Origin: Muribaculaceae bacterium | Lineage (GTDB): Bacteria; Bacteroidota; Bacteroidia; Bacteroidales; Muribaculaceae | NCBI GenBank assembly: GCA_017557625.1 | Contig: JAFYYG010000038.1 | Span: 1-38,596 of the forward strand | DNA: 38,596 nt | Reading direction: 5' to 3' | In this document: piece by piece, positions 16,589 to 38,536 of the stretch | Numbering within the stretch: the stretch's first letter is position 1 | Layout of the letters: the number at the start of each line of letters is the position of its first letter | Position numbers and translations under genes: made by a program | The notes under the pieces: generated by a model | Told to the model about the DNA's origin: nothing | What the model saw: only the letters and a program-made list of their open reading frames with translations | Database searches by the model: none

Positions 16589-16606
16589 ATTTGTGAACTG
16601 AAAAAC

Positions 16607-18744: not shown

Positions 18745-18764
18745 AAATTATAATCAATATCTAT

Positions 18765-20412: not shown

Positions 20413-20728
20413 GTGCGGGAAACTTTCTCCAAAATAATAAGCTAAGTTGAGAAAAGATCACAAATGCAATATGTGGTCTTAATCAGACTTAATAAAATAT
20501 GGCTGCATCCTTTGGGATTCATCTCTAGAGACAGGTTAAAGATGAGGTACATGTGCATCACAATAAGATGCTGCACTCCTCAACAAAAATAATAGGATAT
20601 GGTCGAAAAACAATTTTGTCATAAGTTAATGATATTTGGCACAATTTTTGTACTTTTGTAGGTTACAAACAGAGTTTTGAACATAAACCGAAATCTGCGA
20701 TGACAAATCGCAGTCGTAACTATGCAGT
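20413..20728 (+). promoter_or_regulatory. Leader region of the 15-gene operon: -7 element and 5' hairpin
   Basis: This 316-bp gap holds no gene. TACTTTTG at 20651-20658 fits the TAnnTTTG -7 element; no well-spaced -33 TTG is obvious. A perfect 7-bp hairpin, CTGCGAT (20695-20701), loop GACAA, ATCGCAG (20707-20713), ends 15 bp before the first start codon and could be an operator or leader structure. Everything downstream to 38010 is packed closely enough to be read from here. No terminator was seen after the toxin gene, so some read-through is possible. Confidence 0.55.
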
Positions 20729-21091
20729 ATGACACCATTAAGTAATGAAGCTTTTGCAGTAATGGCCATGTGTAGTAGAGCAAAGCTGCCCTACGGCATT
20801 ACTGTTGACAAGATAGGCTTTGGTCAATTCAAGTTCGTCTGGGCTTTTAAGATTGATCAAGAAAAAGCGCATCGGGAAGGTTATGATGCCAAAACGGTAC
20901 GGGGAGGGGTGATAATTGATAGCGAATACCCTGGTTGTCCGCATTGTGGAGCAAAGAATTTCTACACCTGCGGTGCTTGTGGATGCATTGTCTGCTATCA
21001 TGGCGAAGAGGCCGTCACCTGCCCCAAGTGTGGAAACAGGGGAGAAATCACAAGAGTTGATTCTATAGACCTGCGTGGCGGTGGATATTAA
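20729..21091 (+). CDS. Stand-alone TerY-C-like zinc-ribbon protein
   Basis: The 120-aa protein has an N-terminal ~65 residues with some beta character (GITVDKIGFGQFKFVWAFKI), then three paired metal-binding knuckles: CPHCG at 70-74, CGACGCIVC in the middle, and CPKCG near 98, ending DLRGGGY. This resembles the metal-binding domain found at the C-terminus of TerY VWA proteins, here encoded separately from the VWA protein two genes downstream. It is the first gene of the operon, 21 bp before the kinase gene. A role as partner of the VWA protein or the kinase is inferred. Confidence 0.65.
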   Translation: MTPLSNEAFAVMAMCSRAKLPYGITVDKIGFGQFKFVWAFKIDQEKAHREGYDAKTVRGGVIIDSEYPGCPHCGAKNFYTCGACGCIVCYHGEEAVTCPKCGNRGEITRVDSIDLRGGGY

Positions 21092-21112
21092 TGAAGCTAA
21101 CAGAATCAAGAT

Positions 21113-22387
21113 ATGTCAGAATTAAAACCAGGAACAAAGATTGGCCTTAATGGAGGCGGGCAAGTAGAAATCATTAAAGAGCTTGGACGTGGTGGCCAGG
21201 GCATTGTCTATCTTGTAAACCTTGATGGTGCTCAAATGGCATTGAAGTGGTATCTCAACGATCCAGGAGACAAGTTTTATAAGAACTTGGAACGCAACAT
21301 CAACGCAGGGGCTCCAAGCGATGCATTTCTCTGGCCGGAGTATATCACCAAACGAGAGAGCGGTAGCTTCGGCTACGTGATGAAAGTCCGTCCAAGGAAT
21401 TATTATGAGTTTGGTAATTATCTATTGGCTAAGGTTACTTTCAAGTCCGTTACGGCAATGCTTGCAGCTGCTATGAAGATCTGTGATGGGTTCATGATGC
21501 TTCACCGTCATGGATATAGTTACCAGGACTTGAACGACGGAAACTTTTTCATTGACCCAAGTACTGGCGATGTCCTAATTTGCGATAACGACAATGTGAT
21601 GCCTCAAGGAGACAAGAGCGGTATTATGGGGAAGGCAAGATACATGGCTCCCGAGATTGTCGCAGGCGGCATCCCGGACAAGTACAGTGACCAATTCTCG
21701 TTATCGGTCATCCTATTTATGCTCTTTTATGCGAACCACCCCTTTGAGGGTGCTCGTGTGGTCGCTTGTCCTTGTATGACAGAGAGCTACGAGAAAAAAT
21801 TCTATGGCAGTGAAGCCATTTTCATCTATGATCCAAACAATGATACTAATCGCCCTGTACGTGGTATTCACCAGAATGTAATCCGTCGTTGGATGGCATT
21901 CCCTCAATTATTACGAGAAACTTTCATTGATCAGTTCAGTGAAGAGAAATTACGTAATCCCAATACTCGCCTAATTGAGATGAAATGGAAGGACATCATC
22001 AACAAAGTTCGTGACGAGATGGTTGTATGCCCCCATTGCGGCGATGAGGCATTTGTGGAAATTAAAGATTCATCTACTAGGTGTATGAATTGCGGCAAGA
22101 CCATCAACACTTCATTGAGATTGATTCTCGGTAGCCGAGAGTTGCCCCTCACCCCCAAAACTGAGATATTCATTGATACTGATAACATTCCCGATGGGAG
22201 GGTAGCTGTTGACACTACTGGAACAACCCTGATTCAGAACGTTTCTCCAGATGCCTGGGTCGTAGAAACCGCTAGTGGCAAAATCAAGCAGGTTGATCCA
22301 CAGGGTTATATGCCAGCAAAGCCCGGCTTAAAAATCAAACTTAAAATCCACAACGAGGATTATAATTTGGAAATAACAACAAAATAA
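21113..22387 (+). CDS. TerY-P-type Ser/Thr protein kinase with C-terminal zinc ribbon
   Basis: The 424-aa protein has a kinase domain at about residues 15-285. The glycine loop is G25-R-G-G-Q-G30, the ATP-anchoring Lys is K45 in ALKWY, and the catalytic loop is YQDLNDGN (about 137-144; HRD replaced by YQD). The DFG position reads DND, and KARYMAPEIVAGG is the activation/APE segment. A two-knuckle zinc ribbon (CPHCG ... CMNCG, about 306-331) follows, then a beta-rich C-terminal domain that may be FHA- or Ig-like. Catalytic residues are present, so it should be active. With the VWA and PP2C genes it forms the kinase-VWA-phosphatase set known as the TerY-P triad. Confidence 0.88.
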   Translation: MSELKPGTKIGLNGGGQVEIIKELGRGGQGIVYLVNLDGAQMALKWYLNDPGDKFYKNLERNINAGAPSDAFLWPEYITKRESGSFGYVMKVRPRNYYEFGNYLLAKVTFKSVTAMLAAAMKICDGFMMLHRHGYSYQDLNDGNFFIDPSTGDVLICDNDNVMPQGDKSGIMGKARYMAPEIVAGGIPDKYSDQFSLSVILFMLFYANHPFEGARVVACPCMTESYEKKFYGSEAIFIYDPNNDTNRPVRGIHQNVIRRWMAFPQLLRETFIDQFSEEKLRNPNTRLIEMKWKDIINKVRDEMVVCPHCGDEAFVEIKDSSTRCMNCGKTINTSLRLILGSRELPLTPKTEIFIDTDNIPDGRVAVDTTGTTLIQNVSPDAWVVETASGKIKQVDPQGYMPAKPGLKIKLKIHNEDYNLEITTK

Positions 22388-22403
22388 TAAATTTACTAGA
22401 ATT

Positions 22404-23147
22404 ATGGCTTTATTAGACGATGTAGTAAGTGTTCCGCGTAGAACGATGACCGTGTTCTTCATGATTGATACGTCTGGGAGCATGGAGGGTAACAAAATTG
22501 GTGCAGTCAATGATGCGGTAGTTAACGTATTACCTATGGTTGACGAGATTTCCCAAACTAATCCAGATGCAGAAATCAAGGTTGCAGCACTTGAATTTTC
22601 AAGTGGTACCAAATGGCTCTATAATGAGCCTAAATTGGCATCTGAGTTTGTTTGGCAAGATGTTCGAGCTGGAGGGCTAACCTCACTTGGTGCAGCTTGT
22701 ATTGAACTTAACAATAAGTTGTCGCGTAGCGGTTACATGCAGGCAGCAAGCGGTTCATTTGCACCTGCAATTATTCTTCTTTCTGATGGCGGCCCAACAG
22801 ATGATTTCCAAAGTGGATTAACGAAGCTTAAGAGCAACAAGTGGTTCCAAGCTGCTATTAAGGTGGCTATTGCTATTGGAGACGATGCCGACAAGGATGT
22901 ATTGAAAGATTTCACAGGCTCAAGCGAATCGGTTCTTATCGTTCACAACATCGAAGCTCTTAAACAGATTATTCGTACTGTGGTTGTTACATCATCTCAG
23001 ATTGGCAGCAAGAGTAGTACAGCTGGCGATGTAAGCAAACAGGATCAAGTAATTAAGGATATTACTGATGCCGTCGGGGATATTAAAGGTGCAGAGTCGG
23101 CAGCTGCACCGGCACCCGCTGCTGACAATTACGACGATTGGGATTAA
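22404..23147 (+). CDS. TerY-like VWA-domain protein
   Basis: The 247-aa protein consists of a VWA domain (about 15-205) with an intact metal-ion-dependent adhesion site: DTSGSM, the Thr in GGLTSLG, and the Asp in LLSDGGPTDD. The C-terminal ~45 residues are a low-complexity Ala/Pro/Asp tail (AESAAAPAPAADNYDDWD) in place of the usual zinc-binding domain of TerY, which here is likely supplied by the separate ribbon protein at 20729. No signal peptide, so cytoplasmic. It lies 16 bp after the kinase and 10 bp before the phosphatase. Likely a metal-dependent scaffold for the phospho-signalling pair. Confidence 0.88.
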   Translation: MALLDDVVSVPRRTMTVFFMIDTSGSMEGNKIGAVNDAVVNVLPMVDEISQTNPDAEIKVAALEFSSGTKWLYNEPKLASEFVWQDVRAGGLTSLGAACIELNNKLSRSGYMQAASGSFAPAIILLSDGGPTDDFQSGLTKLKSNKWFQAAIKVAIAIGDDADKDVLKDFTGSSESVLIVHNIEALKQIIRTVVVTSSQIGSKSSTAGDVSKQDQVIKDITDAVGDIKGAESAAAPAPAADNYDDWD

Positions 23148-23157
23148 GTCATAATAG

Positions 23158-24654
23158 ATGAAAGCCCTGCACTATTCATGTCAAGGCGAGAGTCACAAGG
23201 CGACCAATAAGGTATGCCAAGACTTTTCGTATAGTGAGGTTAACGAGAACCTTGCTATAGCCATAGTGTGCGATGGCCATGGTGGTGCACGTTATTTTCG
23301 TAGTGACATAGGTGCGAAATATGCGACTGACATCACTAAAGAATGTGTCACCACTTTCATTGAGAACATTGACAAGAAACTATTCGAGGGCACTGCGTTT
23401 ACGCAGGTATATGCTTTGAACACCGAGATTCAGAACGACAACTTTGCAAAGAAAACCAAAGTTGATGTTGCTATGCGTCAATTGTTCTCGTCAATTATAT
23501 ATCGTTGGCAGGAAAAAATCCTGGAACATGCTCACAATAACCCATTGACCGAGGCAGAACGAGCATCGATTAATCCTCGATACATAGATGATTTTGAAGC
23601 ACAACGCTCATTGGAAAAGACCTATGGCTGCACATTGATGTGTTATGTCCAGACCGAGGACTACTGGTTTGCATTTCATGTGGGTGATGGCAAGTGTATC
23701 GCTTTTGATCATAATGGTCAATGGAGCGAACCAATCCCATGGGATGACCGTTGCTTCTTAAACAAGACTACTTCATTGTGTGACGTTGATGCTCTTGATG
23801 AATTCCGCTATTGCTATCAAGGTGATGGAGAGTTTCCTGTCCTTGTTTTCCTTGGTAGTGACGGAATAGACGATTCGTTTGGAGAAATTACAAACATGGT
23901 CAACTTCTATGCTCAAGTTGCAAAGATGTTTGCTAAAGAGACTTTTGAGTCTTCCATGGATTCTATTGAATCCACTTTGCCCGAATTGAGCGCCAAAGGC
24001 AGTCAAGATGATATGTCTATCGCTTGTATATATGATGAAGAACGCTTAGGTGAAGTTGTAAAACAGATTATCTACTGGCAACAAGATAGCATTCAAAAGT
24101 CAATCTTCTCACTCAACGAGCGGATAGGGCAACTTCTTGATCGGTATAATCAATTTGAGGGCGTTGTTAAACGTTCAAAAAGTGATCAAATTGATTTGAC
24201 TTATACCATCACAGAGTTGAAACGTGCATACCAGGCCAAACGAGACCAAGCAAAAAAGTTTGACAAGTTCTCTATGGAACTTGGTGAGGACCGGGAACCA
24301 TATGATGATGAATATGGATTTGGAGAGCAGTTTGTTTTGATAGCTGAAAAACGTCTTGCCGAACAAATAGAAGAAGATGTTGAGCCTATACCAGAACAAA
24401 CTAAATCTTCAACTCAAGGCACTTCAACTAAAACAGAAGAAGAAACAGTTTTAGAGGGGGATTCCAAAGTTGATGAGAAAAAACCTCAAGAAGTTAATGA
24501 TAATGTAATTGTGATAGAAGATGAGCCTGTTTCTGAAGATAAGACAGTAGAAGTTGAGTGCATTGATAGTGTCAAACCAGTTGAAATTGAATCACAAGAA
24601 GAAACCCAACCAGAATTACCAATAAATAACTCAGAAGCGAATAATGGGCAGTAA
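23158..24654 (+). CDS. PP2C-type Ser/Thr protein phosphatase with acidic tail
   Basis: The 498-aa protein carries an N-terminal PP2C domain (about 1-300): CQGESHKATNKVCQDFS, the metal-binding VCDGHGGARYF, FHVGDGKCIAF, LGSDGIDDSFGE and SQDDMSIACI. All expected metal-binding Asp residues appear present. A coiled-coil stretch follows (about 310-390), then a low-complexity Glu/Thr/Val-rich tail of about 100 residues. It is predicted cytoplasmic and should reverse the kinase's phosphorylations. The gene overlaps the next one by 11 bp. Confidence 0.9.
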   Translation: MKALHYSCQGESHKATNKVCQDFSYSEVNENLAIAIVCDGHGGARYFRSDIGAKYATDITKECVTTFIENIDKKLFEGTAFTQVYALNTEIQNDNFAKKTKVDVAMRQLFSSIIYRWQEKILEHAHNNPLTEAERASINPRYIDDFEAQRSLEKTYGCTLMCYVQTEDYWFAFHVGDGKCIAFDHNGQWSEPIPWDDRCFLNKTTSLCDVDALDEFRYCYQGDGEFPVLVFLGSDGIDDSFGEITNMVNFYAQVAKMFAKETFESSMDSIESTLPELSAKGSQDDMSIACIYDEERLGEVVKQIIYWQQDSIQKSIFSLNERIGQLLDRYNQFEGVVKRSKSDQIDLTYTITELKRAYQAKRDQAKKFDKFSMELGEDREPYDDEYGFGEQFVLIAEKRLAEQIEEDVEPIPEQTKSSTQGTSTKTEEETVLEGDSKVDEKKPQEVNDNVIVIEDEPVSEDKTVEVECIDSVKPVEIESQEETQPELPINNSEANNGQ

Positions 24655-26086
24655 AGGATTACATATCGCCATAAAGGAAGCCATGAAACAAATGGGTGAC
24701 GATATTCTTGTATCTCCTCAGTTTGTTAATATCCTTTCCGATTTATCAGCATTTGGCGATTATCCCTCCTGCAAGGTTATTCTCAAAGATTTGCAACAAT
24801 CAGGAGAGTTGCAAAAGGTCTATGATGCGTATAAAGAGAAAGGCAAGAAATGCATTACAGTAATTGATGCATTAAGGAAATCGATACAGAATAATGGTAA
24901 ATATAAAAAAGCCCTGATTGCTTATGTATATGACTGTTTCCTTTTCGCTTTTGGATCTATAGGAGCCGTCAATGAGCCCACTTCAGGGGCATTTGATGCT
25001 ATGTCAAGTGGCCAGAATGGTCAACCTTTAGACTTGGCTGAGCAACTCAACGACCTCAAGCAGGAATACAACGATTTGCTTGAACGTTTAGCCATCAGAC
25101 CCACTGATATTCTCCATGAGCCAGCAGCTTATTTTCCTGCAATGGCTATGAATGAGTTGTATTTAGTTGAGGCCAAAATTCAAATCGTTTCTAATGCTTT
25201 AGGAAAAAGAGATGAAACATGGTGTCGTCAACAGCTGGAGAAAAAGATTGGCGAGTTCAAACTTGCAAAACGTCAATCTTGTGACAAGGAATTGGCGCGA
25301 TTGAAGAAAGATTACGAGTCGAAATTACACGCTGCATTAGTAATTCCGTCAAAAAAAAGCTATATCTCTAAATCCGCTTATTTGTCTCCAGATGCCATGG
25401 ACGGTTTATCTTCTCTCGAAGATGAAATCAGACGAATGTATCAAGAAATCGGCGATAACTATGATGACTGGTGCAATAAAATGAAGTCTTCGTTATTGGC
25501 TACTCATGGCGTATCACCCACTCAACGCAGAAACCAGATTATAACGAAAATAGGCATCCCTGCTGCTTTTGCTGCTGGCGTGTTATGGCTTGGAGGCTCT
25601 TATGTGGGGTCTAAAAGTGAGATTGATCAGTTCAATAATGACATGAGTCGTGCTAATGAGTTGGTAGCTGAAGGCCATTTCCGTGAGGGTTTCCTTGCAT
25701 ACCAAGAAGCCAAAGATGGATATAATGGTTCTTTTTTTCCAAGCTCATACGAATGGGATGCAGATGAAGCGATTGAAACTACTGTGAAAATGGTGTGTGT
25801 CGAGGCGAGTGAGCTGATTTCAAACAATCAACTTGTTGCGGCGCAAGCCAAACTGAATGAGATTCCCGAGTCGATTATTATTGGCAACAAAGATTTGGAA
25901 AGACAAGTCAAAGATTGCCATGACAAGCTCGATGCAGCTATTTCAAGGATAAGGGATTCTCTTCTATCTATTATCTCTAAGAATGGAGGAAAGCTTGATG
26001 GTGATGGCAAGAAATTGCTTGAAGAAGGGTTACTTGCCTCGCCTAATGATTATTGGTTGAATTTCATAAAGAATAAAGAGAAATGA
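24644..26086 (+). CDS. Membrane-anchored protein with shared N-terminal domain and extracytoplasmic tail
   Basis: This encodes 480 aa. Residues ~5-105 form a helical domain (IKEAMKQMGDDILVSPQFVN, ILSDLSAF, VILKDLQQSG) that recurs at the N-terminus of four more proteins of this operon. A coiled-coil region follows (about 125-295), then one clear membrane helix, IGIPAAFAAGVLWLGGSYVG, at about 302-321. The last ~160 residues are helical with TPR-like spacing (ANELVAEGHFREGFLAYQEA; ASELISNNQLVAAQAKLNEI) and would lie outside the membrane if the N-terminus is cytoplasmic. It sits between the phosphatase and hxsA and could link the cytoplasmic signalling part to the envelope part. Overlaps hxsA by ATGA. 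Confidence 0.75.
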   Translation: MGSKGLHIAIKEAMKQMGDDILVSPQFVNILSDLSAFGDYPSCKVILKDLQQSGELQKVYDAYKEKGKKCITVIDALRKSIQNNGKYKKALIAYVYDCFLFAFGSIGAVNEPTSGAFDAMSSGQNGQPLDLAEQLNDLKQEYNDLLERLAIRPTDILHEPAAYFPAMAMNELYLVEAKIQIVSNALGKRDETWCRQQLEKKIGEFKLAKRQSCDKELARLKKDYESKLHAALVIPSKKSYISKSAYLSPDAMDGLSSLEDEIRRMYQEIGDNYDDWCNKMKSSLLATHGVSPTQRRNQIITKIGIPAAFAAGVLWLGGSYVGSKSEIDQFNNDMSRANELVAEGHFREGFLAYQEAKDGYNGSFFPSSYEWDADEAIETTVKMVCVEASELISNNQLVAAQAKLNEIPESIIIGNKDLERQVKDCHDKLDAAISRIRDSLLSIISKNGGKLDGDGKKLLEEGLLASPNDYWLNFIKNKEK

Positions 26087-27042
26087 AATTACCTTCAAAG
26101 AAAATTTTAAAGACATTGCTGATTTCGGCGGTTGTGTCATTGATTCATGGCAATGCTAAAGCCGATGACACAAAATCAGGACTATCTTTATCACTTGGTG
26201 ATCTTGGAGATGGCATCAATGCTGATGAGATAGACCATGCAAAGCAGAAAGTGATGAAGAATGTGTGGACGATAAAGCGTGACGGTACCACAAAGATGTT
26301 AGCGTCACATCGGTCACATTCATCACACAGGTCACACTCGTCTCATCGATCAGGTTCTAGTGGGTATGGTAGCCATTCATCACACTCGTCACACAGTTCG
26401 AGTTCCTATGGCGGCTCGTCACATTATTCGAGTACGTCTGTCAGCAAGAGTTCCAAAAGCAGCAGTAGCTCCACACCTAGCACGTTGTATTCAACTCCAA
26501 CAACGCCCAAGAAGACAGTTGACACCTATTCTTTGGGTGATAGGTCTTTGATGAAAGGTTTCTATGGTGCTGACGTCACAGAATTGACGACGCTTTTGGT
26601 TAGCAAACGTTATTTGAACCCAGATTTAATTACCACGAAATCGGGACATTCATACTTTGATGAAAACGTGGTGACTGCGATTAAGAATTTCCAAAAAGAT
26701 GCTGGAATAAAGCAGTCTGGTATGGCAGATTCCAATACGATTACAAAGTTAGAAGAGTGGGCAAGTTCAAATACAACAATAAGACTTGGTATCCGTGATT
26801 TGGCGTATTCGAGTGATGAATTAGACCAGATGGAAGGTTATGATGTTACCGAGCTGGTAGAATTGCTAAAGAAGGCTGGCTATGCTCCAGATCCCAGCTT
26901 GATCAAGAAAGACGGTGACAAAACAGTTTTCACGGAAGATATCGCTACTGCAGTGAAAATGTTTCAAGCATACAATGGTTTGCCTGTCACTGGTATAGTT
27001 GATAGCATTACTTTGTCAAAATTAAGGGCGAAAGCGAAATGA
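26083..27042 (+). CDS. hxsA: His-Xaa-Ser repeat protein HxsA with peptidoglycan-binding domains
   Basis: The 319-aa protein has a signal peptide (KKILKTLLISAVVSLIHGNAKA, cleavage near residue 27). Residues 76-116 hold nine His-Xaa-Ser triplets: five in a perfect period of three (H76-S90), three more (H98-S106), and HYS at 114. After a Ser/Thr/Pro linker come two peptidoglycan-binding-type domains: GADVTELTTLLVSKRYLNPD through VVTAIKNFQKDAGIKQSG, and DVTELVELLKKAGYAPDPSL through AVKMFQAYNGLPVTGIVD. The Hxs system is known from comparative genomics as a candidate radical-SAM-dependent modification of these repeats; the product chemistry is not something I can assert. ATGA overlaps on both sides couple it to its neighbours. 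Confidence 0.92.
   Translation: MKLPSKKILKTLLISAVVSLIHGNAKADDTKSGLSLSLGDLGDGINADEIDHAKQKVMKNVWTIKRDGTTKMLASHRSHSSHRSHSSHRSGSSGYGSHSSHSSHSSSSYGGSSHYSSTSVSKSSKSSSSSTPSTLYSTPTTPKKTVDTYSLGDRSLMKGFYGADVTELTTLLVSKRYLNPDLITTKSGHSYFDENVVTAIKNFQKDAGIKQSGMADSNTITKLEEWASSNTTIRLGIRDLAYSSDELDQMEGYDVTELVELLKKAGYAPDPSLIKKDGDKTVFTEDIATAVKMFQAYNGLPVTGIVDSITLSKLRAKAK
26308..26430 (+). repeat. His-Xaa-Ser coding repeat in hxsA
   Basis: Nine HxS triplets are encoded by variable TCACAT/TCACAC/TCATCG-type codons, so the repeat is kept at protein level more than at DNA level. It is the likely modification target of HxsB and HxsC. Confidence 0.85.
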
Positions 27043-27341
27043 CGATACAAATCGACCGAAACATATTTGATGATGCCGCCATCTCCAAGACAATTTATTG
27101 GCTGTCGGGCGATTTCTCTTTCCAGCGCAGGTTGGAAGGAGAAATTGAGTCTATTACCATAACGCCTAAGCCTGGTTCAGAGATGTCCGATTTAGACATT
27201 GAATTGGCGTTTCTTGACAAACTCAATGACAATAAATTGCGTGGTATTATCGCTAATGAAACAAAGGATATTCGGACGATACTCTACGCCAAGGCTTTTG
27301 CGGATGACGATTATCTAAGCGAAGAAGATTTGAACGAATGA
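27039..27341 (+). CDS. hxsD: His-Xaa-Ser system protein HxsD
   Basis: The 100-aa acidic protein (IQIDRNIFDDAAISKTIYWL, then ELAFLDKLNDNKLRGIIANE) matches the small HxsD component that accompanies HxsA, HxsB and HxsC. No metal-binding Cys or membrane segment is seen. By size and position it may act as a carrier or recognition partner for the radical SAM maturases, but this is inference. It overlaps hxsA and hxsB by ATGA on each side. Confidence 0.85.
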   Translation: MTIQIDRNIFDDAAISKTIYWLSGDFSFQRRLEGEIESITITPKPGSEMSDLDIELAFLDKLNDNKLRGIIANETKDIRTILYAKAFADDDYLSEEDLNE

Positions 27342-29604: not shown

Positions 29605-30488
29605 TGGCATTACAAGAGGCAATATATAAAGCTATTCAAGAATTCGGAAAGGATGTTCTTATCGAATCTCGTTTTATAAATATTCTTAACGACTATCATG
29701 GCTTTGATGAAATGCCAGCAGCAAGGTTGATACTTAGGATCATTCAGGAGGAAGGCCATATGTCACAACTGGTAAGTAGTGCTGAATCTTTAAATAAGCC
29801 AGCTATTTCTCAAATACCCTACAAAATAAACAAACGATTTGGCTTTGAGATGGAGTTGGTAGAAAACATCATCAATTGCTTACTCGGTAGCGTTGGTTAT
29901 TCTGTTGTGTCTTCAAGTGTAAAGATATCGGATGAAGGAATCTCATCGCCCGTCCCGAAAGACATTTCCATAACAGAGGTCAGCAAAGAAGATTTGAAAA
30001 AAGCATGGAGTGACAAAGATGGTGTTCAATATAGTAAAAATAGAAAAAAACTTCTGCAGGCGCCCAAATCCATTGATGCATGTTGCATTCAAGAAGGTAC
30101 AAGAATAGTATGCAATCATGCATTTAGTGAATGTCAGTCTCTGGAAAATCTCATTTTACCAGAAGGACTTACTCATATTGGAGATTCTGCATTCTCAGTT
30201 TGTAAATCTTTACAAGGTCTATTCTTGCCTAAATCTTTGATTCATATTGGTGATAACGCTTTTTCTTGGTGCCTTTCATTAAGATTTCTTGTTTTTCAGA
30301 ACAAGATTAAAACAATTGGTCAAGATGCGTTTAGAAGATGCTTTTTAGAAAAGGTTTTCATACCTGATGGGACTCGTTCTCATTTTGAAAGCATATTGCC
30401 TAAGGATATGCACAAGACGATCATAGAGGGCAATACTTTAACAACTTTTTTAAGAAATCAATTACAATGGGACTTCATCAAGCATTAA
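29604..30488 (+). CDS. Shared N-terminal domain fused to BspA-type leucine-rich repeats
   Basis: This encodes 294 aa. Residues ~3-100 are the shared helical domain (EFGKDVLIESRFINILNDYH, then ARLILRIIQEEGHMSQL, and FGFEMELVENIINCLLGSVG). After a short linker come three to four LRR_5 units (ACCIQEGTRIVCNHAFSECQ; NLILPEGLTHIGDSAFSVCK; LFLPKSLIHIGDNAFSWC; KIKTIGQDAFRRC). No signal peptide or membrane segment, so unlike ordinary BspA proteins it should be cytoplasmic. LRRs suggest a sensing or docking surface. The gene overlaps the next one by 22 bp. Confidence 0.75.
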   Translation: MALQEAIYKAIQEFGKDVLIESRFINILNDYHGFDEMPAARLILRIIQEEGHMSQLVSSAESLNKPAISQIPYKINKRFGFEMELVENIINCLLGSVGYSVVSSSVKISDEGISSPVPKDISITEVSKEDLKKAWSDKDGVQYSKNRKKLLQAPKSIDACCIQEGTRIVCNHAFSECQSLENLILPEGLTHIGDSAFSVCKSLQGLFLPKSLIHIGDNAFSWCLSLRFLVFQNKIKTIGQDAFRRCFLEKVFIPDGTRSHFESILPKDMHKTIIEGNTLTTFLRNQLQWDFIKH

Positions 30489-31963
30489 AAGATATAATCA
30501 GTCAGCGCGGGAAAGGATTGCTGGAGAATCCGCAGATTATCAATTATCTGTTAGATTATCGCTGCTTTGTGGATAAGCCAGCGACAAAGTTGATATTAAG
30601 GGATATTATCAACTCTGGCTATGCAAGTGAGATACTCTCACTTGATACTAACATACCTGCCTGGCAAACAAAATTCAAGCACTATGTGCATGAATTCATA
30701 GACTCGTGTGGGTATAAAGAGGAGTTGGCCACATATGTGTTTGAGTCTATTGCATTTGCCCTTGATTTGAAGGTTTATAATGAGGAACCAGAAATTCGCA
30801 GGAAGATCAATGTGGATTCGTTCTTTGACCTTGATGATGAGGGCTCTGCACAACCACCAACCCCTCTGAATCCTGCGCCAACCAAGCCCCAGGTTGATCC
30901 TGGTGATGCCTACACTATTGCCATGTCTTTCTTTAAAGAAGGCAAGTATCAACAAGCCAAAGGTTTCGCCGAGAAAGCCATCAAGAACGTAGTGCGGGGT
31001 GATGTTCCATCTAACTATCTAAAGTTGATGGGAGATATTCTTTTGAAATTAGATGATTATGAGGGTGCAATCGGTTACTACAATGAATGCCTAGCAAATA
31101 AAGCCAAAGAGGAAAAGCTGAATACTGATGAACTTCGCGAAGCATTGAAGATGCATAAGGTCAAAGGATATGAAAATTTCCTTTTCAGATACTTCTATTG
31201 TCTATTTTTCGACAACAGAATACCTAAGGATAAATGGCTTTCGATGCTCAAAAAGGAAGCACGAAACGGCTCGTTGGATGCAGTCCAGTTCTGTGCTCAA
31301 TACGGTATAGATCCTATAGAGAACCATGTAGACATCTTCTTTACAGATTTAAACCAGCTTAAGACGGGAGACTTTCTTTATGAAGATGGGACTTTTGCTC
31401 ATGAATTCAGCAAAAGTAAGAAAGCGATATGTCTTGTGGTCCTAACCAAGACATCTGACTATGAAGAATCCATGGGTTGGATTCATGGCTATCTTGTGTC
31501 GCTTTACATAGCTCGGGCTAAGAAGGTTTCCTCAAATGGAACAATCTTTGATAATACTCAGTTTCGTTGGTCAACAGTGAATGCAGAATTGCCATTTCCA
31601 CATAGTCATTATACAATTGATGATATATCTCATTGGGACAAAGTGGAGAAAATAAAAATAGATCATCTTCTTTCCGTGCCTAATTTGCGAGATTATCCTG
31701 CTTTTCAGGCTGCAACTTTTTTCCAAGTTCGGATGCCACTTGCCAACACAAGTAAATGGTTTCTTCCAAGTGCGATTATAGTTAAAGAAATATTTGCTCT
31801 TACAAAGAGGCTTCCTTTAAGAGGCATAACAGAATGGTTTTCAGAAACACTTTGGACTTCTTCACAATCAGATTGGGAAAATGCAATTGAGTATAATAAC
31901 GGGAAATTACATATAACTCGAAAATGGTTAACCAATGTTGTTGTGCCAGTCGCAGCCTTTTAA
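30467..31963 (+). CDS. Shared N-terminal domain fused to TPR and a Lcl/Fib_succ_major-like domain
   Basis: This encodes 498 aa. Residues ~3-105 are the shared domain (ISQRGKGLLENPQIINYLLD, then ATKLILRDIINSGY, and YKEELATYVFESIAFALD). A Pro-rich linker is followed by TPR-like helices (about 145-245: AYTIAMSFFKEGKYQQAKGF, LKLMGDILLKLDDYEGAIGY). The C-terminal ~210 residues (GDFLYEDGTFAHEFSKSKKA, GWIHGYLVSL, WFLPSAIIVKEIF) resemble the DUF1566/Lcl-like or Fib_succ_major fold, related to C-type-lectin-like and formylglycine-enzyme folds. No membrane segment or signal is seen. Likely a multi-domain adaptor; the C-terminal assignment is moderate. Confidence 0.65.
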   Translation: MGLHQALKDIISQRGKGLLENPQIINYLLDYRCFVDKPATKLILRDIINSGYASEILSLDTNIPAWQTKFKHYVHEFIDSCGYKEELATYVFESIAFALDLKVYNEEPEIRRKINVDSFFDLDDEGSAQPPTPLNPAPTKPQVDPGDAYTIAMSFFKEGKYQQAKGFAEKAIKNVVRGDVPSNYLKLMGDILLKLDDYEGAIGYYNECLANKAKEEKLNTDELREALKMHKVKGYENFLFRYFYCLFFDNRIPKDKWLSMLKKEARNGSLDAVQFCAQYGIDPIENHVDIFFTDLNQLKTGDFLYEDGTFAHEFSKSKKAICLVVLTKTSDYEESMGWIHGYLVSLYIARAKKVSSNGTIFDNTQFRWSTVNAELPFPHSHYTIDDISHWDKVEKIKIDHLLSVPNLRDYPAFQAATFFQVRMPLANTSKWFLPSAIIVKEIFALTKRLPLRGITEWFSETLWTSSQSDWENAIEYNNGKLHITRKWLTNVVVPVAAF

Positions 31964-31974
31964 CTTCCCGAATT

Positions 31975-33657
31975 ATGAATAAACTAATTAACGAAATAAC
32001 ATCAATTGTTTCTCAGTACGGTACTGACATCGTTTCTGAGGAACGGTTTGTGAATATTCTGAAAGACTTGTACCCGGATAGAGATCATCCTGAAAAGTTC
32101 GATATATTGAGAGCACTCATCAATGATGGCATTAGCTCGGAAATGATTGCTACTGTTAACGCCAATAATGCAAGGTCCAAAGTTGAAAAGAAAGCAAAAC
32201 TACTATCTGCAAAATATGGTTATGACCAGCAGGATATTTCACAGGTTTTGTATTGCCTCTGCATTGGATGTGACTGTATTTCTATTGACGATTATAATGC
32301 CCTTAAAAAGCAGAGCAAACCAAAGCCCACTCCGTCTAAGCCAAAAGGCAAACCAAAACCCGCCCCATCTCCATCAAAGCCCAACAAACCTTCAATAAAA
32401 TCTAGTATACGATTCAAGGATTTATTAGGCCTAACAATTGCTATTTGTGGGATAGTTAGCATTCCTTTCATGTGTTTTGCGCTATTAGAGAATGGATGGT
32501 GGCCCTTTTTCGTGCTTATATTTTTAGGTGTCTTTCAATTTGCAATCATTTTAGTCATCGGCTTTATGATATATGGAAGCGATATCAATTCAAGCAATTC
32601 TACCGCACCCGAGATAGAAGCCGGTTTCTCTGCAGTGTGTTTCTGTGCATCTGTTTTTTATATATCTCTGCCTTTTATTTTGATTAACAAGCCGAATGTT
32701 GATTCTGGATCCCCACTTTCATTTTTTCTAGAGGTTATTCTTTGTGGCGCAAATGGGTTTATTGGATATATGTTCGTATCAGACTCTTTGGATTCCTTTG
32801 TACATCAAACAGATATTAAAAGGGTAATAAAAGCATTTTCATTGACTTTATTGGCAGTTATTCTTTTATTTGGCTTGTTCTACTTTTTCCCTTACATAAA
32901 AAACACGTTGAAATCCAATATGGACCTTAAACGCTATGAGGAAGAAGTGAAGCAAGTTGAAAGCATTCGACGTACGAGAGAAACAAAGAGTATCGAATTA
33001 TCGTTTATGGATTTTAACTTAGGAGATAGTATTAATCACTGTTTTGCTTTATTACAAGGTAATTCTATTCATTCTATACAAAGGGGACACTATCTCAATG
33101 AGGATTTGAAGCACAAGAAACTTATAGTTAATAATCTTGATTATTCTGTATTTATTGATACTGTTTTGTACGCAGATTCGGAATGGGATAATGAAAGAAT
33201 CAATCTACATTTATTCTTTCATGATCAAAGATTGATGGCTATAGAGATGATTAACAGACATGAATTAGATAGTTTACTTGAAATATATTCTCGAAAGTAT
33301 GGAGAACCCGAGTGTGTTCCTCAAAGATTATATGAATATCAATCTGAATATGATATAGTGAATTATGGCAATGCTGATCATAAAGAGTATTTATGGACTT
33401 TCTTAAACGGAATCATTCAATTAACCAATGATTATGATGATAGTTTTTCTTTATCAGTATGGCATGTAAGGTATATAGATAGACAGTTCGAATCTATTTT
33501 GAGAAGGAAACATGCAGAAGAAGAAAGAAGGCGATTAGATAATCAAAAACGAGATTCTATAAGAAAACTTGAAATTGAAGCTGAGAAAGAAAAAATGCGG
33601 ATAAAAGAAGAGATAAAAAAGAATGAGAACCATCGCAATGCGATGGATCAAATTTAG
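31975..33657 (+). CDS. Multi-pass membrane protein with shared N-terminal domain (paralogue 1)
   Basis: The start at ATG 31975 (MNKLINEITSIVSQYGTD) gives 560 aa and matches the start of the next gene; an ATG 51 bp upstream lies in the previous gene and is not needed. Residues 1-105 are the shared domain. A Lys/Pro-rich linker (about 115-143) leads to about five membrane helices (roughly 149-167, 171-193, 213-233, 250-266, 284-307). The C-terminal ~250 residues are soluble with coiled-coil segments at both ends (MDLKRYEEEVKQVESIRRTR; KLEIEAEKEKMRIKEEIKKN). Its stop is TAG, aligned with the end of its paralogue. Possibly a membrane effector or channel; unproven. Confidence 0.75.
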   Translation: MNKLINEITSIVSQYGTDIVSEERFVNILKDLYPDRDHPEKFDILRALINDGISSEMIATVNANNARSKVEKKAKLLSAKYGYDQQDISQVLYCLCIGCDCISIDDYNALKKQSKPKPTPSKPKGKPKPAPSPSKPNKPSIKSSIRFKDLLGLTIAICGIVSIPFMCFALLENGWWPFFVLIFLGVFQFAIILVIGFMIYGSDINSSNSTAPEIEAGFSAVCFCASVFYISLPFILINKPNVDSGSPLSFFLEVILCGANGFIGYMFVSDSLDSFVHQTDIKRVIKAFSLTLLAVILLFGLFYFFPYIKNTLKSNMDLKRYEEEVKQVESIRRTRETKSIELSFMDFNLGDSINHCFALLQGNSIHSIQRGHYLNEDLKHKKLIVNNLDYSVFIDTVLYADSEWDNERINLHLFFHDQRLMAIEMINRHELDSLLEIYSRKYGEPECVPQRLYEYQSEYDIVNYGNADHKEYLWTFLNGIIQLTNDYDDSFSLSVWHVRYIDRQFESILRRKHAEEERRRLDNQKRDSIRKLEIEAEKEKMRIKEEIKKNENHRNAMDQI

Positions 33658-33697
33658 AGTTTTGTTCTTGTTATCAAAATAAGTTAAAACGAGGCAC

Positions 33698-35431
33698 ATG
33701 AACGAGCTAATTAAAGAAATATCGACAATAGTTTCTCAGTACGGTACTGATATCGTTACTGAGGAGCGGTTTGTGAATATCCTAAAGGATTTGTATCCCG
33801 ATAGGGACCATCCTGAAAAGTTTGATATTCTTAAGGCCATCATTGCCGATGGCATCAGTGCGGATATGTACACTGATTGCGATGCTACTACTGTTAAATC
33901 CTTTCTTGAAAAAAAGGCTGGGTTCCTTTCAAGAAAGTATGGATTTGATTCAGCGGATATCAAACGAATTCTAGCTTGTCTATGTATTGGAAGTGGATTC
34001 ATAACCATCGATGACTACTATGCAGCGACAACGCCAAATCGTGTAAAGCCGTCGCCTCAAAAGAGCCCAAATCCTGCAAAGCAGAAAGCACAGAGCAACC
34101 CGAACCCAGTTAAGCCAGCGCCAAAGAAGAGTAAAGATCCATTGGATTTGCTGTCGCTGATCTGGTCTTTAGTTGGCTTGTTGGTATCACCATTCATTTA
34201 TTTGGGCCTCCTTACAAGTGGTTGGTGGCCATTTTGGGCACTTTCTGCGGTTCTCGTCATAATGTTCATTTCAATCATCCCGGCTATTAATCAGAACCAA
34301 AAAGCCACAGCTAGCTCTCCCATAGTTGGTGGGGTAACTGCTGTAGTTCTTTGTGCTGCAATATTCCTAACGGTTGCTCCATTCTTTACCTACTGGACGA
34401 GGCACACATTTGACTTTTGCCATCTCTACTATGGATTTGATGTCAATGAGGCGCCGACCATCTTGACATTTATTGGGGGATTAGCATTCTCTTTCGTGTT
34501 CTCTACCTTTATTAATACGACTGTCATTTCTCACTTTTCTTGCAAGGTAATATACAATAGAAATCCGTCAAAGTTCTGGCTGGGATTTGGCGCAACATTA
34601 GCAATTATTTTTGCCGTAACAGCAATATCTTATTACCTTCCTTATAATGATAAGCACAAAGAGGAATTAAAATATGCTGATGATAAATATGATCTTGAAA
34701 AAGAGAAGCAGAGAATATCATACTTGAAAGAAACTCGATCGAAGGAAGAGAAAGAATTCTCATTCATGGATTTCAAATTGGGTGGTAATTTCAAAGAAGC
34801 AGTTAAGCTAATTAGAAATTCGAAAAACGAGTATCGGGTAATAGATGATTCATCGCAAACATTGTCTCTGAATGAGATAGACTTTACCCCAATCGTCGAT
34901 GATGCCATATCTGTCACTACTAATTGGGACAATAAGTTGGTTTACTTGTACCTGTACTCTAATAGTAATCGAATCGTTGCGATTGAGATGAAAACGGAAC
35001 ATAACATAGACAGTCTCGCATCGATCTATTCAAGTAAATATGGAGAGGCGGAATACGCACCAGAAATAGATTACTCGAAATACAAATATATAAAATATCG
35101 TTCAAACGTCAATTATTTGGACACTTTGTTAGGGAAATCTGTTGCATATTCATGGTCATTCAAAAATGCAACAGTACAGGTTTCAGGACTTAAGAAATTA
35201 GAGGGTGTAGATGATTTTTATGAAGGATATGGAAAATCCGTTTTGTACTTTGATAACGAATGCTTTGCATTATTAGATAAGTATAGAGCAAGAGTGCGGG
35301 CTTTGCGACAGGAACAGGAAAATAAAGAGAATGCTGAGGCCCAACGGATTAAAGACTCCGTTTGGCAAGCAGTCCAGAAAGAGCGACTTGAGAAAAAACA
35401 AAATCACGAGAAATCAATAAAACAGATATAA
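33698..35431 (+). CDS. Multi-pass membrane protein with shared N-terminal domain (paralogue 2)
   Basis: This encodes 577 aa. The first ~60 residues are nearly identical to paralogue 1 (VSQYGTDIVTEERFVNILKD, then LYPDRDHPEKFDILKAII), also at DNA level, while the rest is diverged but keeps the same plan: linker rich in Lys/Pro/Asn, about five membrane helices (residues ~145-315), then a soluble part with FSFMDFKLGGNFKEAVKLIR corresponding to LSFMDFNLGDSINHCFALLQ in paralogue 1. A C-terminal coiled coil ends SIKQI. The two arose by tandem duplication. Its stop overlaps the next start (TAATG). Confidence 0.75.
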   Translation: MNELIKEISTIVSQYGTDIVTEERFVNILKDLYPDRDHPEKFDILKAIIADGISADMYTDCDATTVKSFLEKKAGFLSRKYGFDSADIKRILACLCIGSGFITIDDYYAATTPNRVKPSPQKSPNPAKQKAQSNPNPVKPAPKKSKDPLDLLSLIWSLVGLLVSPFIYLGLLTSGWWPFWALSAVLVIMFISIIPAINQNQKATASSPIVGGVTAVVLCAAIFLTVAPFFTYWTRHTFDFCHLYYGFDVNEAPTILTFIGGLAFSFVFSTFINTTVISHFSCKVIYNRNPSKFWLGFGATLAIIFAVTAISYYLPYNDKHKEELKYADDKYDLEKEKQRISYLKETRSKEEKEFSFMDFKLGGNFKEAVKLIRNSKNEYRVIDDSSQTLSLNEIDFTPIVDDAISVTTNWDNKLVYLYLYSNSNRIVAIEMKTEHNIDSLASIYSSKYGEAEYAPEIDYSKYKYIKYRSNVNYLDTLLGKSVAYSWSFKNATVQVSGLKKLEGVDDFYEGYGKSVLYFDNECFALLDKYRARVRALRQEQENKENAEAQRIKDSVWQAVQKERLEKKQNHEKSIKQI

Positions 35432-36525
35432 TGGGAACATGTAAATATTGTGGACAGAGTGCGGGTTTGCTATCGCATGCCCATAGGGAATGTGAAGAGA
35501 AACATGAGCAAGGTCTTGAACAGTTGGAAAAGATCTTGCGGCAGTTTTTCTCCGGCCAGCAAACCGTTCAAAGTATGAGGCAAGCAATAGTGAGCCTACG
35601 GACACCAACTTTCTTGAAGAAATCGGATGTAGAACAATGCGCAGCCAAGGTGCTTGATGCCCATGGTGAACAATTACGTCCGCCATATAATCAGCAGACT
35701 CTTGACCAAATTAACGAATTCATCAATGGCCTGAGTCTTGATCGTCAGGCATTAAATGAGGGCGGCTGCTTGAACAAACTGGCCGAGAAGCTGTTGCGAG
35801 GCTATTTGGCCAGTTTCTTTGTGAGTGGCACCTCTATTGCCACCATCAAGGGCCAGGAGCAGCAAATCGATCGGGTCTTGCCTATGACTCAATCACAGAA
35901 GTTGGATGCCTATATGCACGTCCTGAACCGCGCTGCACATAATTTCTTGAGCAATGGTCTCATCAGTGACAGCGAGCAACAACAGATTGAGCAATATGCA
36001 CAATCCCTGTCCCTGCCGCTATATGACCTGCCTGTACAGTACCAAGGCACCGATATAGAGAAAGTCAACCAAGCCATCATCATTAAGAACCTGCAACGTG
36101 GTATTCTGCCACAAAGCAGCGTTTCGTTGCCTATCTTGTTAGGCAAGAGCGAAGCCGTGTTGTGGGTTTATGATGGCGTAACCTTTTATCAAGAGAAGAT
36201 AGAAAAAGAGTACAAGCATAACAGCGGCGGTTTCAGTTTCCGTATCGCCAAGGGCGTTTATTACCGCACTGGAAGTGGCCGCAGCAAACCGATTGAACAT
36301 AGCGTGATGAACAACGAGGGCAAAGGAAGTCTCATCATCACAAACAAGAACATCATTTTCTACGCTCAAACCAAGAGCGTGAAAATCCCGTTTAAGATAA
36401 TCATTGGAGTAACACCATATAGCGACGGCATCGAAGTCCATAAGGACGGCAATGCAAAGCGTATGGCATTCCAAGGCTTTGACTGCTGGTTTGTAATGAA
36501 CATTCTTTCATTTGTAAACGACTAA
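35431..36525 (+). CDS. Zinc-finger protein with C-terminal PH-like domain
   Basis: This encodes 364 aa. The N-terminus has a small zinc finger, C4-K-Y-C7 followed by H18-R-E-C21 (H16 is an alternative ligand). A helical central region (about 25-215) has a pattern like DnaJ-adjacent or TerB-like bundles (GLISDSEQQQIEQYAQSLSL), though I cannot name it. The C-terminal ~120 residues end in a beta-rich unit, GKGSLIITNKNIIFYAQTKS then VKIPFKIIIGVTPYSDGIEV and a final helix, the pattern of bacterial PH/GRAM-like domains. No membrane segment. Probably an intracellular adaptor in the operon. Confidence 0.65.
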   Translation: MGTCKYCGQSAGLLSHAHRECEEKHEQGLEQLEKILRQFFSGQQTVQSMRQAIVSLRTPTFLKKSDVEQCAAKVLDAHGEQLRPPYNQQTLDQINEFINGLSLDRQALNEGGCLNKLAEKLLRGYLASFFVSGTSIATIKGQEQQIDRVLPMTQSQKLDAYMHVLNRAAHNFLSNGLISDSEQQQIEQYAQSLSLPLYDLPVQYQGTDIEKVNQAIIIKNLQRGILPQSSVSLPILLGKSEAVLWVYDGVTFYQEKIEKEYKHNSGGFSFRIAKGVYYRTGSGRSKPIEHSVMNNEGKGSLIITNKNIIFYAQTKSVKIPFKIIIGVTPYSDGIEVHKDGNAKRMAFQGFDCWFVMNILSFVND

Positions 36526-36531
36526 ATCGAT

Positions 36532-38010
36532 ATGGTTTATAAAGTTTTTGCAAAGCGTCCATCTTATATAGCCGAAGTTTCACGGCAGTATTCACCGTCG
36601 CCTCGTGCTATCATTGATGCTTATGAAAGTGAGAAGAAGGCTTTCACAGAGTTGTATAAGCGACATCAACAGAAAGTGAATGAAGAATCCTTTCAGAAAA
36701 CGATGGACGCTATCAGTGTTAAAACACCAACAAGACAATCTTTTTTCCTACTTAGTCCTTCGATAGAAGATGTGCGTAGCATTCTGCGAAATGAAGCGAA
36801 AGCTGTGTTACATGGTCAGAACCCAGGAATCAGCGAAGAAAGCAAATATATTCAAGACCACTTTGATGACGTTATGCGAGATCGTCAAAAGAAGTGGGAA
36901 GAAGCCCGGGCTCTTTTCAGAAGATTAGAACAAGCTCGTATCGAGATCGAAGAAAGAAAGATACAGCATGAAAAGCAGCAAAAAGAGCAATCATTGTTGG
37001 ATATTAAGAATGGAGAGCCTTATGTGATTGAGCAAGGAATGGCTGAGATTGCGGCCACGTTGGAGGTTCCTTTTGATCTCGATTTTCATTATAACTACAA
37101 CAAAAATGAAGGGCTGGTTACTACCGATGTAGAAATCTTCAATGGTATCAATGTCCCTTTGCAAAAGGCAGAAATGTTGCCAAGCGGCAGAGCTTCAATT
37201 AAGAATAAGTTGGTTCGAGAGGTTGCAGAGGAAACGAAAGATACTATTTTAAGTTTTGTTTATTATTTTGCAAGTTGTGTATTTGAAATATCATCCAATA
37301 TAGCAAAGGTTGAACTGGCCGTATGGGATGAAGGGAAAAATAAAGGTTATATTTGGGTTAGGCTTCTTAGAGATAGGCTTTTCGTAGGAAAAGTGCCAAT
37401 ATTCTTGATTCCGGCCGCCGATATATCGAATTATCGACAAGTCGCTGATTTTCGTGTTAAGACTTCAAGTGTTGAGTTGGCGCCGATACTTGCTCCTAAA
37501 TTCTTGAAACTCATAGAAGAAGAAAAGAAAAAACCAGATTTCACGATACTTCCAAAGAGTAGCAAGTCTGGACAAAAACAAGTGGCCTATATTACAATGG
37601 ACGAAGCTAAATCGTTGCTTCGTGAAATAGGCTATGATTCAGAGTTGAAGCAGAGTATTGCTGACGCTGAGTTAAAAGCCAGTCGTATCGTAGCTGTTGA
37701 TCCTAAATATAAGAAGATGATAGCTGACAAAGCAATTGCGGCAATGTACGAACAAAAAAACGACGTCTCTAGCATAACTGTGCATGAAGTAAAAGATCGC
37801 GACCCGTTATTTGAGGAAGCTGTTAGATTTGTCGTTATGTGTGATACAGTAAGCCCTTCTTCATTACAGAGAAGATATGAAATTGGGTATAACCGAGCTG
37901 GACGTCTGATAGATCAGATGGAACACGCTGGTATAGTTGGACCAGCTGATGGAATAAGACCAAGAAAGGTGTTGGTTAGTCCAATGGATATAGACCAATT
38001 ATTCTCATAA
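36532..38010 (+). CDS. Protein ending in an FtsK-gamma winged-helix domain, no FtsK motor
   Basis: This encodes 492 aa. Residues ~1-170 are mostly coiled coil (RDRQKKWEEARALFRRLEQA, then RIEIEERKIQHEKQQKEQ). Residues ~185-340 form an alpha/beta domain I do not recognise. From D424 to the end the sequence is an FtsK-gamma domain: DPLFEEAVRFVVMCDTVSPS, then SLQRRYEIGYNRAGRLIDQM and EHAGIVGPADG, the DNA-reading module that in FtsK/SpoIIIE recognises polar chromosomal octamers. No Walker motifs or translocase core are present. It is the last gene of the operon, 6 bp after the previous one. A DNA-targeting role is inferred. Confidence 0.75.
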   Translation: MVYKVFAKRPSYIAEVSRQYSPSPRAIIDAYESEKKAFTELYKRHQQKVNEESFQKTMDAISVKTPTRQSFFLLSPSIEDVRSILRNEAKAVLHGQNPGISEESKYIQDHFDDVMRDRQKKWEEARALFRRLEQARIEIEERKIQHEKQQKEQSLLDIKNGEPYVIEQGMAEIAATLEVPFDLDFHYNYNKNEGLVTTDVEIFNGINVPLQKAEMLPSGRASIKNKLVREVAEETKDTILSFVYYFASCVFEISSNIAKVELAVWDEGKNKGYIWVRLLRDRLFVGKVPIFLIPAADISNYRQVADFRVKTSSVELAPILAPKFLKLIEEEKKKPDFTILPKSSKSGQKQVAYITMDEAKSLLREIGYDSELKQSIADAELKASRIVAVDPKYKKMIADKAIAAMYEQKNDVSSITVHEVKDRDPLFEEAVRFVVMCDTVSPSSLQRRYEIGYNRAGRLIDQMEHAGIVGPADGIRPRKVLVSPMDIDQLFS

Positions 38011-38011
38011 A

Positions 38012-38503: not shown

Positions 38504-38536
38504 CTCGGTTGCTGGTTTTCAGTATCGGCGGCAAAA

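Follow-up and report, generated by a model that had tools for sequence, protein, structure and literature searches.

Why does a complete His-Xaa-Ser (Hxs) cassette lie in one run of genes with a TerY-P-type set of kinase, VWA protein and phosphatase? This question is raised by a fifteen-gene operon (g1 to g15) of Muribaculaceae bacterium (assembly GCA_017557625.1), present on contig JAFYYG010000038.1. The window analysed here, 38,596 nucleotides long, is this entire contig (G000:C24 of a draft genome of 3.05 Mb), and the right flank of the operon stops with it at position 38596. On balance, and with considerable doubt, we favour the view that the operon encodes a modular conflict system, probably directed against phages, which would be built on a TerY-P-type phospho-switch and in which the hxs cassette would be one exchangeable, wall-anchored module. 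This reading draws on gene content, gene order, gene fusions and the exchange of modules, all of which can be seen in the sequences compared here; a signalling frame with exchangeable modules fits them better than an obligatory machine.

The fifteen genes form a run of intact plus-strand open reading frames (ORFs) from 20729 to 38010, all of which are open. Eight of the fourteen junctions overlap (distances of -11, -4, -4, -4, -4, -1, -22 and -1 bases, counted with the preferred starts, which are 28732 for g9 and 31975 for g12), the remaining six are gaps of 6-40 bases, and the overlaps run uninterrupted from g4 to g11. An earlier note on this DNA had described fifteen plus-strand genes with eight overlapping junctions and gaps of up to about 40 bp, and had recognised in them a TerY-P triad and a complete HxsA-D set; these statements hold. 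The genes concerned are:

20729..21091, plus strand: g1, stand-alone TerY_C metal-binding domain protein of 120 amino acids (PF15616, 5.5e-10)
21113..22387, plus strand: g2, Ser/Thr-type kinase of 424 amino acids with a C-terminal Cys-rich ribbon (PF00069, 4.9e-14)
22404..23147, plus strand: g3, TerY-like VWA protein of 247 amino acids with a MIDAS-type motif (PF00092, 1.8e-8)
23158..24654, plus strand: g4, PP2C phosphatase of 498 amino acids with a long tail (PF13672 (PP2C_2), 5.7e-28)
26083..27042, plus strand: g6, HxsA-like protein of 319 amino acids with a signal-peptide-like start, a His-Xaa-Ser repeat and two PG_binding_1 stretches (Pfam, motif check)
26308..26430, plus strand: His-Xaa-Ser repeat stretch of g6, nine H-x-S (motif check)
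27039..27341, plus strand: g7, HxsD (TIGR03976, 70.3 bits, cut-off 50)
27338..28735, plus strand: g8, HxsB radical SAM maturase with CxxxCxxC (TIGR03978, 551 bits, cut-off 370)
28732..29604, plus strand: g9, HxsC radical SAM maturase, short form of 290 amino acids (TIGR03977, 307 bits, cut-off 267.9)

Judged by Pfam matches and motifs, the first four genes have what defines a TerY-P triad: a VWA protein with a MIDAS motif (DTSGS, GLTSLG and SDGG in g3), a PP2C phosphatase, and a Ser/Thr kinase with a C-terminal zinc ribbon. For this ribbon, several models match residues 297-334 of g2, all of them below the Pfam cut-off, and CxxC pairs are visible. The catalytic motifs expected of the operon enzymes are present. 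The g1 protein is 90% identical in genome G004; counts of g1 are lower bounds, because the ORF filter passed over it in locus L080, where it is annotated. With respect to the Hxs genes, HxsB, HxsC and HxsD are above the curated cut-offs, whereas g6 scores 45.6 bits with the NCBIfam HxsA model (cut-off 121.65) but does carry the repeat. HxsC also deviates, having 290 amino acids versus 370-401 in most hxs loci that lack a triad. Elsewhere, in 21 other loci, hxs is a stand-alone cassette; that of the window sits in a kinase operon together with its own membrane protein. In locus L042, two HxsA-like genes, of 297 and 309 amino acids, stand in tandem before a single hxsDBC (L042:5522-7341). The Hxs system has been named, but to our knowledge it has no known function: no title among the open-literature papers containing the term 'His-Xaa-Ser' deals with it, and no account of the chemistry by which HxsB and HxsC would modify HxsA was found among the open-literature matches listed.

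Triad loci were gathered with g3 as the query. At E 1e-20, 4 of 344 genomes of the order have a g3-type VWA protein. The genus has it in 5 of 101 genomes, where G802 (L100) has a lone VWA protein, and the family of G605 in 1 of 12; one scan of genome contigs gave 12 loci, and at E 1e-30 the genome of the window stood alone among 385 of the class. From the plasmids, of which 2261 records match g3, the one with at least 60% identity was added, and one IMG/VR contig (L106) contains a triad. So few matches among the genomes sampled rule out a wide spread. The 20 triad loci so obtained (the window, L040-L054, L080, L099, L101 and L106) do not include the lone VWA protein of L100 or a partial match in G034, and G004 has the same locus as L049; the triad is incomplete in L048 (no kinase detected), L051 (cut by the contig end) and L101 (no PP2C detected). 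A phage origin of L106 is unproven: PHROGs gave no structural gene for three small proteins (two from L106, one from L044), and a 1648-residue protein had only helicase-type matches there.

The genes hxsADBC follow the triad in the same order in six of these 20 loci, namely the window, L049 (= G004), L052 (= G605), L040, L041 and L042, and in all six a g5-type protein directly precedes HxsA; L041 has one additional gene between PP2C and g5. In the other 14, hxs was not seen within the stretch read, which is short for some of them, above all L046 and L106. Of the 344 genomes of the order, 14 have an HxsB above the cut-off, as do two of 61 relatives (the window and G004) and one of 395 genomes of the phylum (the window, with G217 just below); among the viral contigs scanned with HxsB, no relative was found. 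None of the 21 other hxs loci (12 of the order, excluding the window and G605; G217; and 8 of 491 matching plasmid records) has a triad within the stretch read, L075 and L072 being cut by the contig end. The same join in relatives thus rules out an association limited to the genome of the window, and the loci with either part alone rule out an obligatory single system. Of the earlier proposal that both sets form one machine, what remains is the order that recurs in six loci and the fusions described below, while the triads without hxs and the hxs loci without a triad speak against it. At the level of genomes, co-occurrence of triad and hxs is weak: HxsB is present in two of the four triad genomes of the order draw (P 0.009, window included), and with the window left out in one of three versus 13 of 343 (P 0.11). 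The argument for a functional link is one of gene order and fusion, not of genome counts.

Five proteins of the operon (g5, g10, g11, g12 and g13) have in common an N-terminal domain of about 100 residues, here called domain X. The copies, and the proteins that carry them other than g5, are:

24656..24955, plus strand: domain X copy in g5 (X profile)
29604..30488, plus strand: g10, domain X and BspA-type leucine-rich repeats, 294 amino acids (PF13306, 2.3e-23; X profile)
29604..29897, plus strand: domain X copy in g10 (X profile)
30467..31963, plus strand: g11, domain X, TPR and a C-terminal part without family, 498 amino acids (TPR_2, 3e-6; X profile)
30467..30766, plus strand: domain X copy in g11 (X profile)
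31975..33657, plus strand: g12, domain X and several transmembrane (TM)-like segments, 560 amino acids; ORF open from 31924 (X profile, hydropathy)
31978..32274, plus strand: domain X copy in g12 (X profile)
33698..35431, plus strand: g13, relative of g12, domain X and several TM-like segments, 577 amino acids (X profile, hydropathy)
33701..33997, plus strand: domain X copy in g13 (X profile)

The X profile was made by an iterated search of the ORFs of the window and 27 loci (G605 and G628 not being among the source loci), and it gave 24 X proteins. An alignment of 22 of them has two invariant columns, the L and D of N-x-L-x-D, and no credible counterpart was found in Pfam (22 members scanned, best 0.0075) or among solved structures (best 0.55). 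In the window and its relatives, domain X is joined to leucine-rich repeats, TPR, FtsK gamma, FGE-sulfatase, FKBP and, in a protein of 2302 residues, DUF4011-helicase-MTES_1575. It is present in 17 of the 20 triad loci and in none of the 21 hxs loci without a triad. Strong matches occur in 4 of the 344 Bacteroidales genomes, three of which are among the four triad genomes (P 1.5e-4 for the association, window left out); two much weaker matches in the order draw, in G575 (through stops) and G648, look like chance or remote ones. The genome G812, of the same genus, has two divergent triad-type loci (L099 and L101), both with domain X proteins, and one of these loci has two VWA genes in a row.

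Among published concepts, domain X comes closest to the effector-associated domains (EADs), which are small end domains on several operon proteins of VWA-MoxR and GTPase conflict systems (PMC7159879). In the window, too, a small domain stands at the N-terminus of five proteins of one operon and matches no enzyme family; like EADs, X recurs at protein ends and tracks a core system. It differs from them in that the core consists of kinase, PP2C and VWA and that neither a credible Pfam match for X nor a copy on a core component was found, and because of this last difference we do not class it as an EAD.

Bearing on whether the two halves of the operon belong together are g5 and g15, which, with g14, complete the gene set:

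24644..26086, plus strand: g5, proposed coupler of 480 amino acids, composed of X, a middle part, a weak TM-like segment (299-317) and a C-terminal part (X profile, hydropathy)
35431..36525, plus strand: g14, 364 amino acids, Cys/His-rich N-terminus and a C-terminal part that is possibly PH-like (by eye; no family over cut-off)
36532..38010, plus strand: g15, 492 amino acids, hxs-associated part and C-terminal FtsK gamma domain (PF09397, 4.2e-26)
37795..37977, plus strand: FtsK gamma domain of g15 (PF09397)

Both g5 (X plus an hxs-linked part) and g15 (an hxs-linked part plus FtsK gamma) appear to be fusions tying the triad and hxs halves. L076 has hxs and no triad. Its counterpart of g5, located before HxsA, has no X and corresponds to residues 207-479 only; the next protein upstream corresponds to residues 151-271 of g15, again with no gamma domain. 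Relatives of the non-gamma part of g15 were found in hxs loci only (L052, 2.4e-31; L041, 1.1e-7; L076, 2.2e-5; phmmer), and FtsK gamma is found in triad loci with and without hxs (the window, L042, L043, L044, L053 and L080), as are relatives of g14. Seen in this light, g5 looks like a bridge between the triad and hxs, and its TM-like segment together with its X and hxs-linked parts supports the membrane adaptor that had been postulated for this operon. The postulated DNA-binding protein is supported by g15, whose gamma domain is of the DNA-binding type and aligns with the FtsK gamma domains of the solved structures 2j5o, 2ve8 and 2ve9. The last of these we take to be a DNA complex, in which the helix of the IGYNRAGR region reads DNA. 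As IGYNRAGR in g15 is identical to the corresponding stretch of the host's own FtsK, g15 may bind the sites that orient FtsK. In scans with Pfam and NCBIfam, no family exceeded its cut-off for g5, g12, g13 or g14. The genome of the window contains a third FtsK gamma domain at G000:C57:42250-42429, in an open frame of 209 amino acids with a hydrophobic end.

What stands in the place of hxs in relatives indicates the kind of system to which the frame may belong. Behind the triad of L044 (Xylanibacter ruminicola D31d) come, in this order, one X protein, g14, a protein with X and FtsK gamma, ZorA2 (PADLOC 1.3e-155), ZorB2 (5.9e-78), ZorE2 (5.2e-88) and a further X protein, and a type ISP restriction enzyme lies upstream with one ORF in between. 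L080, on plasmid pE2-28 of Prevotella sp. E2-28, consists of TerY_C, kinase, VWA, PP2C, an X protein, an unknown gene and g14, and then X-FGE, a UvrD-exonuclease, X-FtsK gamma, a g12-like X protein, ZorA2 (4.8e-166, PADLOC) and an OmpA-family gene. L053 has the X protein of 2302 residues mentioned above. Zorya type II genes thus follow the same triad/X/g14/FtsK-gamma frame in two relatives. The anti-phage activity of Zorya II is proven; its function depends in an important way on the binding of ZorB to peptidoglycan, and infection directs ZorE to the membrane (PMC11890865). Each of the two modules has a peptidoglycan-binding-type part, ZorB in one and HxsA in the other, and because both seem wall-anchored we regard hxs as a candidate envelope sensor. 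They differ in that HxsA is not a motor stator and is presumably acted on by radical SAM enzymes. Among the 15 window proteins there is no sign of ZorA or ZorB, as Pfam gave no match to MotA/ExbB or OmpA at E 0.1.

Trees and pairs of closely similar loci bear on module exchange. In a tree of 24 HxsB proteins (without those of L033, L093 and L094), the six triad-linked HxsB lie on one side of a single branch (86/84); their sister is L076 (G485), followed by L077 and L078, all without a triad. A second tree covers 17 triads (all but L099, L101 and L106); it requires four changes of the hxs label, and well supported branches force two or more of these. We infer from this that the hxs cassette was joined to the triad a single time and has since been transferred or lost among triads. 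The triads of L040 and L041 share 96% DNA identity over 3.4 kb, and the protein identity is 67% for HxsB, 60% for HxsC, 53% for HxsA, 46% for HxsD and 31% for g5. The separate X gene of L040 and the X part of the L041 g5 are 84% identical in DNA over 324 bases, and this X copy has moved. L042 and L051 likewise have close triads (identity of 97% for VWA, of which L051 retains 102 residues, 88% for PP2C and 84% for the DNA), and only L042 has hxs. Such replacement behind a constant core would be typical of conflict systems.

Taken together, these features suggest the following working for the favoured conflict system. In the cytoplasm, the His-Xaa-Ser stretch of HxsA would be modified by HxsB and HxsC together with HxsD, after which HxsA would be exported by its signal-peptide-like start and bind peptidoglycan. 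The g5 protein would span the membrane once, with X inside and its C-terminal part outside, and couple HxsA to the switch. Kinase and phosphatase would set the phosphorylation of the X proteins, with VWA and TerY_C as a metal-bound scaffold, and domain X would be the adaptor by which the switch recruits or controls its modules. A disturbance of the envelope, such as phage entry, would then alter X phosphorylation and release the activities of the X proteins, while g15 could bring the complex to chromosomal DNA by its FtsK gamma domain. Hxs would thereby fill the part that the peptidoglycan-anchored ZorAB has in relatives with the same frame. There is a more far-reaching version, to which we give a rather slim chance. 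According to this version, Hxs would, at least in this operon, be the envelope-sensing arm of an immune kinase switch, HxsA, modified by radical SAM enzymes and bound to the wall, replacing the ZorAB motor as the detector of phage entry. Domain X would represent a docking domain of a new class, through which one switch drives a range of interchangeable effectors. The FtsK gamma domain, captured from elsewhere in evolution, would read the chromosome-orientation sites of the host, by which the effectors could distinguish own from foreign DNA. The recurrent position of Hxs in a phospho-signalling operon whose relatives have genes from a system with proven anti-phage activity provides a direct and testable guess at its function. 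Domain X, if it is an adaptor, would be a new link between a TerY-P-type switch and interchangeable effectors in Bacteroidales, and its position marks candidate genes of the system, so that it can be used to find further effectors.

Several observations weigh against the favoured reading, in which the defence function and the interactions are putative. No phage-killing enzyme was recognised among the 15 window proteins (Pfam, NCBIfam), and the triad of L050 is followed by FHA and caspase genes, so that this locus may be ordinary signalling. As to the envelope part, a hydropathy scan flags no TM segment at the start of HxsA, where the export signal was assigned by eye only, and the TM segment of g5 is weak (hydropathy 1.66; 1.61-2.97 in relatives). 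With regard to the links, the match between L076 and g15 is weak, the g15 relatives of L041 and L052 lack the gamma domain despite the triad next to them, genome-level co-occurrence fades without the window, and the hxs label is hardly clustered on the triad tree (103 of 500 shuffles as low). Domain X is absent from three of the 20 triad loci (L045, L050 and L054), the X profile finds no copy on the kinase, VWA or PP2C (g2-g4), and in G752 (L091), the fourth genome with a strong X match, no triad was seen within some 10 kb of the X protein; moreover, the profile was built from triad neighbourhoods and favours triad-linked copies. A rival explanation, to which we assign a real but minor share of probability, is that the TerY-P set and hxs could be independent systems of one defence island that are co-transcribed. 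Each does occur on its own, and the exchange of cassettes and an AbiE-like pair adjoining the operon would fit an island. Against it stand the shared order in six loci from at least two families, their HxsB in one clade (86/84), the overlapping junctions from g4 to g11, and the bridging proteins g5 and g15.

Two further explanations were weighed. It is unlikely, more so than mere neighbourhood, that the operon serves signalling of envelope or metal stress, in which the triad would sense metal or wall damage and HxsA would remodel or guard the peptidoglycan. Support for this comes from the wall-binding-type domains of HxsA and from the tie of TerY-P to tellurite resistance, for which a metal-sensing switch has been proposed (PMC11090510). 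In sister loci, however, the same frame contains or adjoins Zorya genes, a restriction enzyme and proteins of the helicase-nuclease type, and the patchy presence of the VWA match in the genus (including one lone VWA and one partial match) and the low G+C content of the operon fit a conflict system better. Least probable, and in our opinion very improbable, is that HxsA is itself the effector, a modified product exported to act on competitors or on the infected cell once the triad switches it on. For a VWA-FtsH conflict system, modification of a peptide effector by a radical SAM enzyme has been proposed (PMC7159879), and the two HxsA genes in a row in L042 could be read in the same way, but HxsA of these loci has about 300 residues and wall-binding-type domains, and the 15 proteins, of which four have no match at all, include no recognised exporter or immunity gene of a bacteriocin type. 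The modular conflict system remains the reading that we favour.

The TerY-P triad, its zinc-ribbon kinase and its role in defence and in loci linked to restriction have been described (PMC11090510 and PMC7699616), the system being reported as active against T7-like phages in the latter. Like the known TerY-P triads, including the copies attached to CoCoNuT, the window has all three enzymes, the ribbon kinase and TerY_C; it differs in that TerY_C is a separate gene and that five domain X proteins and the hxs cassette are added. No core gene of CoCoNuT (McrB-type GTPase, coiled-coil nuclease) is among the Pfam matches of the 15 window proteins. The nearest precedents that we met would be the radical SAM enzyme of the VWA-FtsH system and a kinase-PP2C-VWA set found beside GAP1 systems (both PMC7159879). 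The statement of the earlier note that it knew of no description of this combination agrees with our search: none of triad plus hxs was found in the open literature among the matches listed, the founding Hxs and TerY-P papers lying outside its coverage, where a mention is possible.

The region before g1 is:

20413..20728, plus strand: leader between the AbiE-like pair and g1 (no promoter above chance)

The promoter-like leader that had been described here could not be confirmed. Sigma-70-like sites are not in excess (44 in 20300-38596 versus a shuffle mean of 47.0), and the motif TTTG-N17-23-TAnnTTTG, which we take to be the Bacteroidota promoter consensus, has four matches in the window and none in the leader. 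The leader has a single TAnnTTTG box, TACTTTTG, at 20651-20658, and no promoter above chance was found for the operon. The operon has a G+C content of 0.409, versus 0.523 in the first 12 kb of the window; this fits arrival from elsewhere, and the operon was probably acquired horizontally.

The surroundings contain other genes of interest. An AbiEi/AbiEii-like toxin-antitoxin pair (PADLOC 1.2e-59 and 1.1e-92) lies on the same strand just upstream of the operon (18684-20412), and an annotated AbiE pair is also present near the stand-alone hxs cassette of a Hymenobacter plasmid (L027). Further upstream, at 14729-18379, three plus-strand genes of 459, 146 and 590 amino acids have a G+C content of 0.354; none of the three matches Pfam, the two long ones match neither PADLOC nor NCBIfam, and the trio is possibly another defence system. 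At the other end, near the end of the contig, the minus strand (38012-38452) contains the remnant of a DNA/RNA non-specific endonuclease (PF01223, 3.8e-30), of which the upstream frame has stops. In L077 (G648), an open gene of 280 amino acids from the same PF01223 nuclease family, with a TM-like start, directly precedes HxsA, and upstream of this nuclease-hxs cassette a DUF4236 + AAA protein (L077:5566-7434) is another possible partner of hxs.

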